Positions 58,253-64,000 of a stretch of 64,000 bases of DNA are shown here, one piece after another. How positions within the stretch are numbered: the first letter of the stretch is position 1; each line of letters opens with the position of its first letter. The stretch lies in NCBI GenBank assembly GCA_002779605.1, contig PEWE01000033.1, forward strand, positions 123,352-187,351. Direction: 5' to 3'. Origin of the DNA: Zetaproteobacteria bacterium CG06_land_8_20_14_3_00_59_53 (GTDB lineage: Bacteria > Pseudomonadota > Zetaproteobacteria > Mariprofundales > Mariprofundaceae). The position numbers and the translations under genes are program-made. The notes beneath the pieces were generated by a model. It was not told the origin of the DNA. It saw only the letters and a program-made list of their open reading frames with translations, and ran no database searches.

Positions 58253-59337
58253 TATTCCTGCCTCACCGTAACGTGTTTCGCCCTATTACCATAATTACTG
58301 CCAACATTGCCAACAGTGACATTCACATTATCAGCACTCTGCATCACTGAAATTGTGTTGCGATCCTCCGAACCGGTCAAACCACCCTGCAGAATGTTCA
58401 ATTTCGTATTATTCCCCGTTTGCAGGGCCCTCACATCATTGAACTGGCCCTCCTGATTTACTGAGAGATCGTTTTTGAAGCCTGACTGGATTGCCTGAAT
58501 GCTGTTGTTTTTTCCGCTTTGCTGAATATTCGCAGTCGCCTCGGCACCCGACTGCTCCAGAGATGCTGTCAGCTGGGAGGTTCCGGCATGGCTCTGCGTA
58601 ATATTTGCCGTGTCCTGAGCGTTGGTCTGAAACAGGGTCAATTTTGCCTGATCGGCCACCTGCCTGATCGTGGCCCCTCCACCGCTCCCGCTTTGCACAA
58701 TTGCTGCCTCATTGCCATCGCCCTGCTGCAGCATATTCAACCGATTGCCGGACGACGATTGCGCAATCTGCGCAAAGTTTCTATTGCCATATTGCTCAAC
58801 TGTCATGGTATTCTCCCGACCACCCTGTTCGACGAGAAGTACGCTATCCGTTCCTTCCTGGGTAATCGTTGCATTAGCCAACCTGTTCTGTTGAATTTGA
58901 AGAATCTGGGAAACGCCGGACTGACGGACACTCAACGTTGTTGCTTCTTCAATCTGTTCAATAGAAACAAGGTTTGAGCTACCTTCCTGATAAACGTCTG
59001 CAGTCTGAAAAGCATCGCGCTGCAACACGTCAACCACATTCAGATCACCTCGGGTTTCAACATTGGCACGGAAACTCTGATCACCTGCCTCACTTGCACT
59101 ACCCTGCTGAACCTTGGTGATATTACTGCTCCCCTGCTGATCGACTGTTACAAAAGCATCATTCGTTTGCACCTGTTCGATCGCCGCATTATTGCTGCTG
59201 CCTTCCTGATTGATCACTGCCGACGAATAATCGGCCGCTGCCACATTGGGAAGCAGTATGAATGCGAGTGTCAGGCAGAGGGCGCAATGCCGGATACCGG
59301 ATACTGCAAAGGATATGAGACTAGTTCTTTGCACCAT
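58252..59337 (-). CDS. Curlin-repeat protein in the csg operon (CsgB/CsgA-like)
   Basis: 361 residues. After a signal peptide (ALCLTLAFILLPNVAAA) the chain is built of diverged curlin repeats with the Q-x-G-x-x-N pattern (SSAVINQEGSSNNAAIEQVQ; NVTVGNVGSNYGNRAKHVTV at the end). The repeats are less regular than in the three upstream curlin genes, which suits a nucleator or minor subunit like CsgB. The ATG at 59337 is preferred to TTG 59370. It overlaps the csgH-like gene by 17 bases and csgE by one. Confidence 0.82.
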   Translation of the reverse strand: MVQRTSLISFAVSGIRHCALCLTLAFILLPNVAAADYSSAVINQEGSSNNAAIEQVQTNDAFVTVDQQGSSNITKVQQGSASEAGDQSFRANVETRGDLNVVDVLQRDAFQTADVYQEGSSNLVSIEQIEEATTLSVRQSGVSQILQIQQNRLANATITQEGTDSVLLVEQGGRENTMTVEQYGNRNFAQIAQSSSGNRLNMLQQGDGNEAAIVQSGSGGGATIRQVADQAKLTLFQTNAQDTANITQSHAGTSQLTASLEQSGAEATANIQQSGKNNSIQAIQSGFKNDLSVNQEGQFNDVRALQTGNNTKLNILQGGLTGSEDRNTISVMQSADNVNVTVGNVGSNYGNRAKHVTVRQE

Positions 59338-59761
59338 CGGCTTCCGGGTAGGAAGAGGAGAAAGTCGCAATCACATCGCCGGAATGTTTACAGCGAGAAC
59401 CCGGTATGCAAATACGCAGCTCAAGCTGCATGTTGTCGTGCTGTGCAAAGCTACCGAAACGCAATACCGGCCCCAGATCAACATCCTTGCCTTCCACTGT
59501 ATCGATGCGACCACCGTGACCCTCGGTAGATGTTCCGGCGGATCCTCGTTTGGTAATCCTGAGTTTATAATCAAATGTTGCGGTTCCATCCGAGCGTATG
59601 CTCGGGCGCAGTGTAACCGTGGCCGTATCGGCATCGTGTTTGAGATTGAAGGATGCTTCCATATCTGGTTGCCTGTGAGCATAGCTGTTCGGAATGAAGG
59701 TGCAAAACACAAAGCCCAGTGACAACAATGCACACGTTTTCACAATGCTTCCAGTCATCAT
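59321..59761 (-). CDS. Curli assembly protein of the CsgC/CsgH type
   Basis: 146 residues. A signal peptide is followed by one Ig-like beta domain (FNLKHDADTATVTLRPSIRS; FDYKLRITKRGSAGTSTEGH) and a C-terminal cysteine pair (LRICIPGSRCKHSGD). Its place at the head of the csgE-F-G operon and its size fit CsgC/CsgH, which block curlin aggregation in the periplasm. Sequence similarity across this family is low, so the call rests partly on context. Confidence 0.65.
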   Translation of the reverse strand: MMTGSIVKTCALLSLGFVFCTFIPNSYAHRQPDMEASFNLKHDADTATVTLRPSIRSDGTATFDYKLRITKRGSAGTSTEGHGGRIDTVEGKDVDLGPVLRFGSFAQHDNMQLELRICIPGSRCKHSGDVIATFSSSYPEADGAKN

Positions 59762-59875: not shown

Positions 59876-61195
59876 TTAGTTCTGCACAATGCTGGCTGAG
59901 TTGCCTGCACCACCACTCTGCGAAATATTGGCAGAATTAAAGCTACCATTCTGCTCGATGAATGCGCTATTGCGCTCACTGGCGGTGCCGGCACCTGTCT
60001 GTGAAATATTTGCCGCATTACCAGTACCGGTCTGCATAATTATTGCATCAGCATAGCTTGAAACCTGATCAATACTGGCCGTATTCAGGTCGCCGCTCTG
60101 CTCGACATTGATTTCGTTGTACGAACCGGTTGTATTCACAATGGCTGTGTTCAGATTGCCTTCCTGATCAATATCGACATTGTTAAAATCACCCAGCATC
60201 GCCAGTTCAGTGATGTTGCCATCACCGAGCTGCTCGACATCAGCCACATTGCCGTTACCTGTCAGGAATGCATCGGCAGAATTGTTGTTACCATTCTGCA
60301 CCAACTCTGCTGAGTTGCCGTCACCAGCCTGCTCAACCTCGGCAAAATTGTCGTTACCCATCTGCTCGATGCTGGCGATATTGTTATTACCTACCTGATC
60401 ATTGTCAGCGTTGTTGTTCACACCGGTCTGCGCAATATCTGCACTGTTGCCATTGCCTATCTGCTCGACACTGGCGTTGTTGCCATTGCCGTCCTGCTCG
60501 ATATTGGCAATGTTTGCTATACCGTCCTGCTCTACTCGAGCGACGTTTGCCAAACCATTCTGCTCAACTTCGGCGAAGTTTGAAGAGCCATTCTGTGTCA
60601 TATCAGCCTGATTGGAGTCACCCGTCTGATCCACATCCGCGGTATTGCTATATCCGGTCTGCGTCAGATCGGCAGAATTATTGCTGCCGATCTGCTCAAC
60701 ACTGGCATCGTTCGATGTTCCGGTCTGGGCCAGTTTCGCAGTATTATTGTTGCCCTGCTGGGCAACATCGGCGCTATTTTCGTTCCCAACCTGTTTGATC
60801 TCTTCAACCTTGTTTCCGTTACCCTTCTGGGCCACGCCAGCTGTGTTGTTGTCACCGTTCTGGTCAACATCAACAAAATTATGATCACCTGTCTGATCTA
60901 CTGTGGCTGCATTGCCGTTACCGGCCTGTTCGACATCAGCCTCGTTGATGTTACCGATCTGATTAATACTGGCGGTATTTGCATCCCCGGTCTGCTCAGC
61001 CTCGGCTTTGTTCACACTGCCGGCCTGATTTATGTCAGCTGTGCCGAAATTTACATCCACCTGCTCGACTACGGCTTCGTTGGAACTACCGACGGACTGG
61101 CTGATATCTGCGGAAGAGTTGCTTGTGGCAGCGTTGGCATAGGTCGAAACCGACATCATGACCAAGGCTGCTGCAATCGAGATATATTTTTTCAT
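59876..61195 (-). CDS. Long curlin-repeat (CsgA-like) protein, 439 residues
   Basis: Candidate major amyloid fibre subunit. A signal peptide (KKYISIAAALVMMSVSTYAN) is followed by about 38 tandem units of some 11 residues of the pattern NxAxVxQxGxx (for example ADVDQTGDSNQADMTQNGSS). E. coli CsgA has five 22-residue repeats, so this chain is roughly three to four times longer. It is strongly acidic, rich in Asn, Gln and Ala. ATG 61195 lies four bases after GGAGG. The promoter carries the two palindromes at 61247-61279. Confidence 0.9.
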   Translation of the reverse strand: MKKYISIAAALVMMSVSTYANAATSNSSADISQSVGSSNEAVVEQVDVNFGTADINQAGSVNKAEAEQTGDANTASINQIGNINEADVEQAGNGNAATVDQTGDHNFVDVDQNGDNNTAGVAQKGNGNKVEEIKQVGNENSADVAQQGNNNTAKLAQTGTSNDASVEQIGSNNSADLTQTGYSNTADVDQTGDSNQADMTQNGSSNFAEVEQNGLANVARVEQDGIANIANIEQDGNGNNASVEQIGNGNSADIAQTGVNNNADNDQVGNNNIASIEQMGNDNFAEVEQAGDGNSAELVQNGNNNSADAFLTGNGNVADVEQLGDGNITELAMLGDFNNVDIDQEGNLNTAIVNTTGSYNEINVEQSGDLNTASIDQVSSYADAIIMQTGTGNAANISQTGAGTASERNSAFIEQNGSFNSANISQSGGAGNSASIVQN

Positions 61196-61246
61196 CAAAC
61201 CTCCGGGTAGGGGGAAACTTTTCCACTTGTGCGTACCTTATGAAAC

Positions 61247-61262
61247 CGTGATCTGGATCACA
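61247..61262 (-). promoter_or_regulatory. CRP-like palindrome upstream of the 439-residue curlin gene
   Basis: CGTGATCTGGATCACA (plus strand) matches the CRP/FNR-family pattern TGTGA-N6-TCACA with one end mismatch. It is 52 bases upstream of the start codon, the same offset as the site at 63192. Confidence 0.7.
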
Positions 61263-61263
61263 A

Positions 61264-61279
61264 TCACCTTAATAGGTGA
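61264..61279 (-). promoter_or_regulatory. TCACCT-N4-AGGTGA palindrome upstream of the 439-residue curlin gene
   Basis: Perfect six-base arms around TAAT (TCACCTTAATAGGTGA), one base beyond the CRP-like site. Repeated with identical spacing at 63209. The protein that binds it is unknown. Confidence 0.7.
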
Positions 61280-61334
61280 CAAAAATTAATTGGCTTTAAT
61301 AAAAGTGGAAATAATCAGCAGGTTGGAAGAATTC

Positions 61335-61838
61335 CTATTCTTGCCTGATGTCAGCCAGGTTTCCGCTACCGCTTTGCTCAACGTTTACAGTATTGGAACG
61401 ACCTTTCTGGCCTACCTGAGCCACATTCTCATTTCCCAACTGTTCCACATCCACGCTATTGGAACTTCCGGATTGCTCAACGCTTGCAAGGTTCTGATCT
61501 CCCCGCTGATCAAGATCGACCATATTGTTCGAACCCGACTGTTCAACTCCGGCCGTGTTTCGATCCCCATCCTGCTCTATTTCAGCAAGATTTCCTGAGC
61601 CGGACTGCTGCAGATCGACTGTGTTTGCGTGTCCGGTTTGTTCGATTTTCGCCTGATTGTTTTTGCCGGACTGTGTGATGGCGGCTGTAGTAAAGTCGGC
61701 ATCCCGCTGCTCCACGGATAACCTGTTATGTGAACCGGCCTGACTCACTTCAGCATTTGATCGACTGCTTTCGGCCTGAGCGTTGATCGCCAGAGACAAC
61801 GTGAGCAAGACTGCAATGACTACGATATATCCTTTCAT
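61335..61838 (-). CDS. Short curlin-repeat protein, 167 residues
   Basis: Signal peptide (KGYIVVIAVLLTLSLAINAQ) and about 12 units of the curlin pattern (LQQSGSGNLAEIEQDGDRNT; VEQSGSSNSVDVEQLGNENV). The length is close to E. coli CsgA/CsgB, so it could be a second fibre subunit or nucleator. It lacks the paired palindromes found before the other two curlin genes, and its ribosome site is weak. Confidence 0.86.
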   Translation of the reverse strand: MKGYIVVIAVLLTLSLAINAQAESSRSNAEVSQAGSHNRLSVEQRDADFTTAAITQSGKNNQAKIEQTGHANTVDLQQSGSGNLAEIEQDGDRNTAGVEQSGSNNMVDLDQRGDQNLASVEQSGSSNSVDVEQLGNENVAQVGQKGRSNTVNVEQSGSGNLADIRQE

Positions 61839-61927
61839 CGTAAGACCCCGATAATTTCATATTTGGTACTCATATAGAGCCTGAAACTTGATCCCAGAAG
61901 TTGATAACAAACGCCTTAAACGCAGAA

Positions 61928-61947
61928 GGGCGGACCGAAGTCCGCCC
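61928..61947 (-). terminator. Terminator after the 389-residue curlin gene
   Basis: Perfect 8-base arms GGGCGGAC / GTCCGCCC around a CGAA/TTCG tetraloop. The T tract on the minus strand is short (CTTCTG), so termination may be partial. Confidence 0.7.
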
Positions 61948-61971
61948 CCTTTAGCATTGCGATCTTTGAAC

Positions 61972-63141
61972 TTACTTCTGCTCGACGTTGGCCACGTTGC
62001 TGTTGCCGCCGCTCTGAGAAACAGAAGCAGTGTTAAAGTTGCCGGACTGCTCGACGTTGGCAACGTTGTAGCTGGAAGCCTGCATCACGTTGGCGACGTT
62101 GCTGTTGCCGGACTGCTCGATTTCAGCTTCGTTGCCATTGCCGATCTGTGCTACGCCAGCGACGTTAAGGCTGCCACTCTGGTCAACATCAACACTGTTG
62201 TCGTTACCCGTCTGGGCAACATCGGCGCTGTTGCCATTGCCGAACTGCTCGACTTCAGCTTCGTTGCCGTTGCCCTTCTGGTCAACATCGGCTGCATTGT
62301 TGGCACCCTGCTGGGCGATCTCGACACTGTTGTTGTTGCCGGCCTGGTCTGCATCAGCGATGTTGCCGTTACCGGTCTGGGACAGGTCAGCACGGTTGCC
62401 GTTGCCAAACTGCTCGACTTCAGCATCGTTGGCAAAACCAATCTGGTCGATGTTGGCGGTATTAGCGTCGCCCGACTGCTCAACAGCTGCAGTGTTGGAA
62501 GTGCCGGTCTGGTCAACATCAGCAACATTGGCGTTTCCGATCTGCTCGACAGAAGCAACGTTGTTGTCGCCGATCTGCTCGACTTCAGCGTTGTTGCCGT
62601 TGCCGGACTGGGTAACAGAAGCATCATTGCCGTTACCCTGCTGGGCAACTTCTGCCTCGTTGGCGTTGCCGCCCTGCGCAACATTGGCATCGTTGTTATT
62701 GCCGGTCTGAGCAACCGAAGCTTCGTTGCCGTTACCCTTCTGGTTCACGTCGGCATTGTTGCCGGCACCCTTCTGGGACACGGTAGCGGTGTTGTTGTCG
62801 CCGTACTGGTCGACATCAGCGGTGTTGCTGTCGCCGGTCTGGCTGACACGGCCAACGTTGCCGTTGCCGGCCTGCTCGACGTCTGCATTGTTCAGGCTGC
62901 CGACCTGCGAAACGCCGGCGCTGTTGCCGTTACCAGTCTGCTCGATCTCGGCGGTGTTCACGGAACCAGCCTGATCAATGGTGGCATCAGTAAAGCTGGC
63001 GTTATCCTGCTCAACGGTCGCATTGTTGGCGCTGCCGATGGTCTGGTTAACAGTGGCTGTGGAATTGTTCGTGGCTGCCTGCGCGTAGGATGCGAAGGAC
63101 ATAATCATAACGGATGCTGCAATTGCGATGGAACGTTTCAT
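61972..63141 (-). CDS. Long curlin-repeat (CsgA-like) protein, 389 residues
   Basis: Candidate major fibre subunit. Signal peptide (KRSIAIAASVMIMSFASYAQ), then about 33 tandem units of 11 residues (VEQFGNGNSADVAQTGNDNS; VAQQGNGNDASVTQSGNGNN), the most regular repeats in the locus. It ends with a Gln-rich unit (SGGNSNVANVEQK). The start at 63141 replaces the ORF track start at 63183, which runs through the promoter. GGGGAG lies 11 bases upstream. The paired palindromes are at 63192-63224. Confidence 0.9.
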   Translation of the reverse strand: MKRSIAIAASVMIMSFASYAQAATNNSTATVNQTIGSANNATVEQDNASFTDATIDQAGSVNTAEIEQTGNGNSAGVSQVGSLNNADVEQAGNGNVGRVSQTGDSNTADVDQYGDNNTATVSQKGAGNNADVNQKGNGNEASVAQTGNNNDANVAQGGNANEAEVAQQGNGNDASVTQSGNGNNAEVEQIGDNNVASVEQIGNANVADVDQTGTSNTAAVEQSGDANTANIDQIGFANDAEVEQFGNGNRADLSQTGNGNIADADQAGNNNSVEIAQQGANNAADVDQKGNGNEAEVEQFGNGNSADVAQTGNDNSVDVDQSGSLNVAGVAQIGNGNEAEIEQSGNSNVANVMQASSYNVANVEQSGNFNTASVSQSGGNSNVANVEQK

Positions 63142-63191
63142 AAATAAGGTAACTCCCCTTTTGTTTGAAATATGGCCGAACATTATGAATC

Positions 63192-63207
63192 TGTGATCCA
63201 GGCCACA
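63192..63207 (-). promoter_or_regulatory. CRP-like palindrome upstream of the 389-residue curlin gene
   Basis: TGTGATCCAGGCCACA (plus strand) fits TGTGA-N6-(T/C)CACA. It lies 51 bases upstream of the start codon. A CATAAT-like minus-ten element follows on the minus strand, so a factor here would touch the core promoter. Confidence 0.68.
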
Positions 63208-63208
63208 A

Positions 63209-63224
63209 TCACCTCAATAGGTGA
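63209..63224 (-). promoter_or_regulatory. TCACCT-N4-AGGTGA palindrome upstream of the 389-residue curlin gene
   Basis: TCACCTCAATAGGTGA, perfect six-base arms around CAAT, one base from the CRP-like site, exactly as at 61264. Confidence 0.7.
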
Positions 63225-63304: not shown

Positions 63305-63832
63305 TTAGTGACCATCAAGTGAAATAAGGCCCAGACGGGTAGCTTCGTAAATCGCTTCGCTGCGCGAAGAAACATCAAGCTTTGTATAGATCCGCTTCAC
63401 ATGGGTACCGATCGTATTCGTGCTAACATTCAGGATTGCCGCCAGCTCCTTGCGTGAGAAACCCTTGAACATCAACTCCAGAACTTCCTTTTCCTTGGTG
63501 CCCAGCTGGGGGGGGGCATCGTCGGCAATCGGCTTATGGAATCTTCGCAAGATCATTCTGGCTATATCAGGACACAAAGGAGCACCACCCTCCCAAAGCT
63601 CCATCATGGCCTCGACAATCGCAACCGGACCAGCCGACTTCAACTTATACCCGGTTGCTCCCGCCTCTAGAGCCTTGAATACGTATGTATCCTCTTCATG
63701 GCTGGTCACCACCAGGCACTCAAGCAGAGGGTTCTCCTTCCGGGCAGCCCGGATCAACTCATACCCGTCACCGTCCTTAAGATCGATGTCGACGACGATA
63801 ACATCAGGATTGACTCGTCGAATCAGCGCCAT
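63305..63832 (-). CDS. LuxR/NarL-type regulator beside the curlin genes, receiver domain incomplete
   Basis: 175 residues. It keeps the receiver aspartate (PDVIVVDIDLKDGDGYELIR) and the lysine-side helix (GATGYKLKSAGPVAIVEAMM). The C-terminal DNA-binding domain is intact (GTKEKEVLELMFKGFSRKEL; STNTIGTHVKRIYTKLDVSS). The first part of a normal receiver, including the paired acidic residues, is missing before ATG 63832. Reading upstream continues in frame with receiver-like residues until a TGA. A run of nine C lies in the linker (DDAPPQLG). By position it is a candidate curli regulator, analogous to CsgD, but not clearly orthologous. Confidence 0.78.
   Translation of the reverse strand: MALIRRVNPDVIVVDIDLKDGDGYELIRAARKENPLLECLVVTSHEEDTYVFKALEAGATGYKLKSAGPVAIVEAMMELWEGGAPLCPDIARMILRRFHKPIADDAPPQLGTKEKEVLELMFKGFSRKELAAILNVSTNTIGTHVKRIYTKLDVSSRSEAIYEATRLGLISLDGH
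63508..63516 (-). repeat. Nine-C tract inside the regulator coding sequence
   Basis: GCC CCC CCC CAG in frame on the minus strand, in the linker between receiver and DNA-binding domains. A gain or loss of one base would remove the helix-turn-helix. Confidence 0.9.
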
Positions 63833-64000
63833 CCCCTCTTCACAGCCACTGGCTGTTCCACGAAGCTCAATTCGGGCGTACTTATCAATTGCCAGCTCAA
63901 GCCCCTTCCTGAATCAGTGAGTTTACATTGGTAATTTTCTGTTTCTTCTTTTGTAATTAGCTGATTTTATTTATGTTTTATGTTACATTAGAACCGCATC

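Follow-up and report, generated by a model that had tools for sequence, protein, structure and literature searches.

The window, a stretch of 64,000 nucleotides, lies at the end of contig C3 in the present genome (G000, 2.37 Mb). It carries two large curlin genes (cur1 and cur2), a small curlin gene (61335-61838), and a csg operon. The csg operon contains csgE, csgF, and csgG, and also encodes a CsgH-like protein (59321-59761) that scored 33.5 bits against a cut-off of 35. csgH has been described from Alphaproteobacteria, half of them without csgE and csgF (PMC3521004). Upstream of cur2 there is the remnant of a LuxR/NarL-type response regulator, whose 5' end is cut in the assembly by a repeat that occupies the final ~95 bases of the window, at a contig break. 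Both large curlin genes are preceded by the palindrome TCACCT-N4-AGGTGA, followed by a CRP-like box and by predicted promoter hexamers (Table 1).

Table 1. Features of the two curlin promoters and their surroundings in the window
Feature	Position	Strand	Basis and remarks
Palindrome TCACCT-ATTA-AGGTGA, upstream of cur1	61264..61279	-	Exact match and register test; proposed activator operator centred near -43
CRP-like box TGTGATCCAGATCACG, cur1	61247..61262	-	One mismatch to TGTGA-N6-TCACA; overlaps -35 and spacer, centre near -26; 14/16 to E. coli CRP consensus
Predicted -35 hexamer TTGTGA, cur1	61258..61263	-	Abuts palindrome; prediction only
Predicted -10 hexamer TAAGGT, cur1	61235..61240	-	17-base spacer; prediction only
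Curlin gene 1 (cur1), served by first element	59876..61195	-	~439 aa; PF07012, 15 stretches
Palindrome TCACCT-ATTG-AGGTGA, upstream of cur2	63209..63224	-	Exact match and register test
Predicted -35 hexamer TTGTGG, cur2	63203..63208	-	Prediction only
CRP-like box TGTGGCCTGGATCACA, cur2	63192..63207	-	One mismatch to TGTGA-N6-TCACA; centre near -26
Predicted -10 hexamer TAATGT, cur2	63180..63185	-	17-base spacer; prediction only
Curlin gene 2 (cur2)	61972..63141	-	Signal peptide start MKRSIAIAASVM...; PF07012, 17 stretches
Remnant LuxR/NarL-type response regulator, upstream of cur2	63305..63905	-	GerE and partial receiver; start codon and first receiver residues missing
Repeat, probable insertion sequence end interrupting the regulator	63906..64000	.	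Identical at six other places in the genome

Read in the sense direction, the cur1 promoter is TTGTCACCTATTAAGGTGATTGTGATCCAGATCACGGTTTCATAAGGT (from 61282 down) and the cur2 promoter is TTGTCACCTATTGAGGTGATTGTGGCCTGGATCACAGATTCATAATGT (from 63227 down). Exact TCACCT-N4-AGGTGA occurs in the window only at these two promoters, and other matches with up to two mismatches lie elsewhere. As the initial annotation had reported, the same palindrome and CRP-like box stand before both genes, and their spacing is identical, 17 bases from start to start. The distances to the start codon had been given as 51 and 52 bases. They are indeed nearly equal, but with a slightly different way of counting they are 50 bases (ATG at 61195) and 49 bases (ATG at 63141) from the CRP-like box. 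The palindrome was absent from the small curlin gene and the csg operon in a scan of the window, as had also been stated.

The 48-base element is identical at 40 of 48 positions between the two promoters (22 of the first 23). The 80 bases upstream of it (z -1.3) and the remaining 5'UTR (z 0.2) align only at the level of shuffled sequences, while the first 210 coding bases of cur1 and cur2 are clearly paralogous. Thus, the bases of the element were kept while the surroundings were lost, which agrees with the earlier view that the element is selected. Since the two genes are paralogous, their promoters are not independent and count as one event. The relationship of the 5' ends would suit a recent duplication of the promoter between the paralogues, in which the palindrome has no special function. 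This explanation is very improbable, because the UTR and the upstream flanks have diverged fully and the element has not, and because the palindrome-promoter unit is also found before nonhomologous genes and, with an unchanged register, in other genomes.

Genome-wide statements on G000 come from pattern searches. The exact palindrome has three copies in this genome, all of them upstream of exported fibre-type genes, and a reversed-pattern control gave none. Among 61 genomes, G000 alone has more than one exact palindrome. The third copy precedes an exported collagen-like gene (PF01391; GPQGPxG; L095:1583-1956) by 64 bases; this gene is at the end of contig C10 and runs off it. A dispersed repeat, the alternative raised in the initial annotation, and likewise a mobile element were rejected: there are three exact copies in 2.37 Mb and their flanks are unrelated.

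With the extended pattern TGTCACCT-N4-AGGTGATTGT and up to three mismatches, additional copies were found in G000 before the gene of an exported coil/repeat protein beside pilin-like genes, and before an exported gene belonging to a pair, the first product of which has a PEP-CTERM-like signal at its end. One more match (L105) falls within a coding frame, next to transposase genes. When the palindrome and the -10 were combined into one query, four places in G000 had no more than one mismatch; each is upstream of a site gene already known, as expected by construction. The next best match, with two mismatches, is intergenic between malQ and wzz at the edge of a surface-polysaccharide locus, before the wzz chain-length determinant gene (L191:12166-13343, contig C10). 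As we estimate that about 0.35 such matches would occur by chance, the wzz site is a lead only. Other surface-matrix genes, and genes of two relatives, are also preceded by the unit of palindrome and promoter, so that the palindrome is probably the control element of a small matrix regulon and not a switch for curlin alone. It had been described as dedicated to fibre subunits, and this part has to be given up because the palindrome is also found before the collagen-like, coil, and PEP-CTERM-like genes and before csgH of a relative (G002).

Sigma-70 hexamers were scored downstream of seven palindrome sites and compared with 3000 shuffles. In six of the seven, a -10-like hexamer (TAAGGT, TAATGT, GAGAAT, TACATT, TATGGT, and TACATT) starts 31 bases after the palindrome centre. 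A TTG-type -35 is directly 3' of the palindrome, with a spacer of 17 bases (16 in the relative G019). The mean score at this common register was far above those at all other registers, and none of the 3000 shuffles reached it. Because the search pattern included the TTG and not the -10, the way in which the sites were found had no influence on the -10 register. The site of the collagen-like gene is the sole exception and has no promoter in the common register. When the first base of the -10 is taken as -12, the palindrome centre is at about -43.5 relative to starts that are predicted, not mapped.

Class II sigma-70 promoters include those activated by CRP in the class II position and by LuxR at the lux box near -42.5. 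In such activator-dependent promoters, the operator is centred close to -41.5/-43 and abuts or overlaps the -35, and at six of the seven sites the palindrome is likewise centred near -43 and abuts the -35. The -35 and -10 hexamers of cur1 and cur2 are also weak and gave no match in a consensus promoter scan; for cur2, CATAAT, two bases upstream of TAATGT, is an alternative -10 with a 15-base spacer. Given the fixed register and the abutting -35, a bound activator would sit near -43 and touch RNA polymerase as in class II. Unlike in the known cases, the operator sequence and, presumably, its reader are different, and activation is proposed here from sequence.

Two other functions of the palindrome have to be weighed at this point. 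A dimeric repressor could cover the edge of the -35 and silence the matrix genes for as long as no signal arrives. Polymerase could be blocked at a perfect 6+6 palindrome next to the -35, and the regulator is broken in both curlin genomes in which it was seen, a loss the cell could tolerate if it did no more than derepress the genes. We nevertheless consider a repressor operator unlikely, since weak -35 and -10 hexamers are expected of activator-dependent promoters and class II activators classically bind at sites centred near -43. The palindrome might also form an RNA hairpin, either an attenuator or one that terminates the upstream gene; it is 53-78 bases downstream of the upstream genes, and a stem of six pairs is possible. 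This is hardly credible: the region has neither a T-run nor a terminator-like site, and the conserved bases run on into the -35/-10 register. Moreover, the palindrome is upstream of the predicted -35 and would thus be outside the curlin mRNA.

Curlin genes were found in only 3 of 74 genomes of the family, and thus the comparative base is thin. The palindrome is conserved in two relatives, as matches of the extended element with at most three mismatches. In G002, which belongs to the same genus, the element precedes csgH (csgH operon) as TGTCACCTATTTGGGTGATTGT. In G019, from another genus, it is flanked by a LuxR-type regulator and a curlin gene, so that the order regulator, palindrome, curlin gene is common to G000 and G019. 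In a search of 399 genomes from the phylum that allowed no more than one mismatch, the extended element was found only in G000 and G002, apart from four single matches in coding sequence or at its edge, a number equal to that predicted by chance. The element therefore looks like a lineage-specific operator. A class-wide search with three mismatches (78 genomes, one order) gave mostly scattered matches and was not used.

The motif TGTGA-N6-TCACA with at most one mismatch has 44 matches in G000 against 15 for the reversed control, and 57 against 44 in G019. Four CRP-family HTH proteins (PF13545, above cut-off) are encoded in G000. One of them (C3:97798-98535) carries RETVTR and scored 57.8 bits against a cut-off of 266 for the CRP model; the corresponding helix sequence in CRP is RETVGR. 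Between the gene of this protein and a response-regulator gene there is a composite palindrome match with three mismatches (L188:1501-1546, G000:C3:98562-98607), which is at chance level. A perfect TGTGA-N6-TCACA (L119:1501-1516, contig C17) separates a phosphate-transporter-like gene from that of an exported protein.

CRP-like boxes with at most one mismatch are near three of the five strongest G000 promoters, where 0.009 would be expected; P is about 0.001 when the paralogous pair is counted once and a fivefold intergenic excess is allowed. The promoter of the coil gene has a perfect box near +2. The PEP-CTERM promoter and that of csgH in G002 have none, and the collagen-like promoter has matches only at two mismatches. 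Neither the presence nor the position of the box is conserved in the relatives, as it is absent in G002 and near -54 in G019.

These data bear on the two-factor switch that the initial annotation had proposed. An activator-type operator is very likely, and the enriched CRP-like motif and the encoded CRP-family proteins are in keeping with a second factor, but the two boxes are not one fixed element. A true unit of palindrome and CRP-like box at the curlin genes would explain the identical spacing at both promoters, and boxes are found near three of the five strongest G000 promoters and also in G019. We judge it somewhat unlikely, because the fixed spacing was seen in the two paralogous curlin promoters only, because elsewhere the box is absent or displaced, and because one arm of the box is the -35 hexamer itself; the CATAAG/CATAAT flank likewise overlaps the -10 region. 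The overlap of the box with the core promoter suggests steric repression, in which the box would act more like a repressor or roadblock site. With respect to CRP/Vfr-type operators, the cur1 box is close to the E. coli consensus, but unlike them the curlin box overlaps the -35 and the spacer, where it would be expected to repress, and its position is not fixed beyond the curlin pair.

The regulator upstream of cur2 has a complete GerE domain, and its receiver domain is matched from position 36 only. With its GerE domain and partial receiver it resembles the NarL/FixJ response regulators NarL, MadR, and MctR, which are its best NCBIfam matches. Unlike them, it is far below the equivalog cut-offs and 5'-truncated in the assembly. 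It also failed the CsgD equivalog model (38.5 bits, cut-off 250). The homologue in the same place in G019 (L090:154-818, contig C7) consists of two overlapping frames, of which one ends at 393 and the other restarts at 390; this split may be a sequencing error. The curlin-adjacent regulator is thus disrupted in both genomes, broken in G000 and frame-disrupted in G019. The closest intact homologue (58% identical) is in G003, a genome without an exact palindrome, and close homologues in other genera are not near palindromes. At the positions that we assume, from NarL, to contact DNA, the predicted residues are GTK in G000 and the similar ATK in G019, compared with SVR in G003. This is weak evidence since similar triplets are present in other homologues too. 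A LuxR/NarL-type regulator of this kind is the likeliest candidate reader of the palindrome.

In Enterobacteriaceae, CsgD of the FixJ/LuxR family is the master activator of matrix genes, those for curlin included (PMC3521004, PMC3535384), and CRP-cAMP activates csgDEFG directly (PMC5745457). Similar to CsgD control of csgBAC, the locus described here has a LuxR-type regulator remnant beside curlin and a putative CRP-type input, as read from the sequence. There are three differences: the neighbouring regulator is not CsgD, the CRP-like box is on the curlin promoter itself and not on a csgD promoter, and the operator is a perfect TCACCT palindrome.

The original observation stands and is stronger than first claimed. 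Our preferred reading, favoured with moderate confidence, is that the element is the operator of an activator of a small extracellular-matrix regulon with CRP-family input at some members, including CRP/FNR-family input at the curlin promoters, rather than a two-box switch reserved for curlin subunits. An activator would bind TCACCT-N4-AGGTGA and switch on a small set of extracellular-matrix genes, contacting RNA polymerase as a class II activator from its place near -43, just upstream of the weak -35 (TTGTNN). In G000, the regulon would include the two large curlin genes, the exported coil/repeat gene, and the PEP-CTERM-like exported pair; the collagen-like gene is a probable member, and wzz is perhaps another. 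The reader would most likely be a response regulator of the LuxR/NarL type, similar to the one whose gene lies directly upstream of cur2. At the curlin promoters, a CRP/FNR-family protein may bind the second palindrome over the -35 and the spacer, most likely excluding polymerase.

No csgD has been found in Delta-, Beta-, and Alphaproteobacteria (PMC3521004), and many curli systems are without an identified regulator. In the titles and abstracts of the papers searched, we recognised no paper on curli of Zetaproteobacteria or on a TCACCT-N4-AGGTGA operator. We tentatively propose that this could be an undescribed matrix regulon outside the classical curli groups, in which a single activator of the LuxR/NarL type recognises TGTCACCT-N4-AGGTGATTG directly 5' of the -35 of amyloid, collagen-like, PEP-CTERM, and polysaccharide genes, while at a subset of these genes a CRP-family protein competes for the core promoter. 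With an operator that is compact and has a fixed register at amyloid, collagen-like, and other matrix genes, matrix control in this lineage becomes directly testable, and the palindrome-promoter unit is a search pattern for further members of the regulon.
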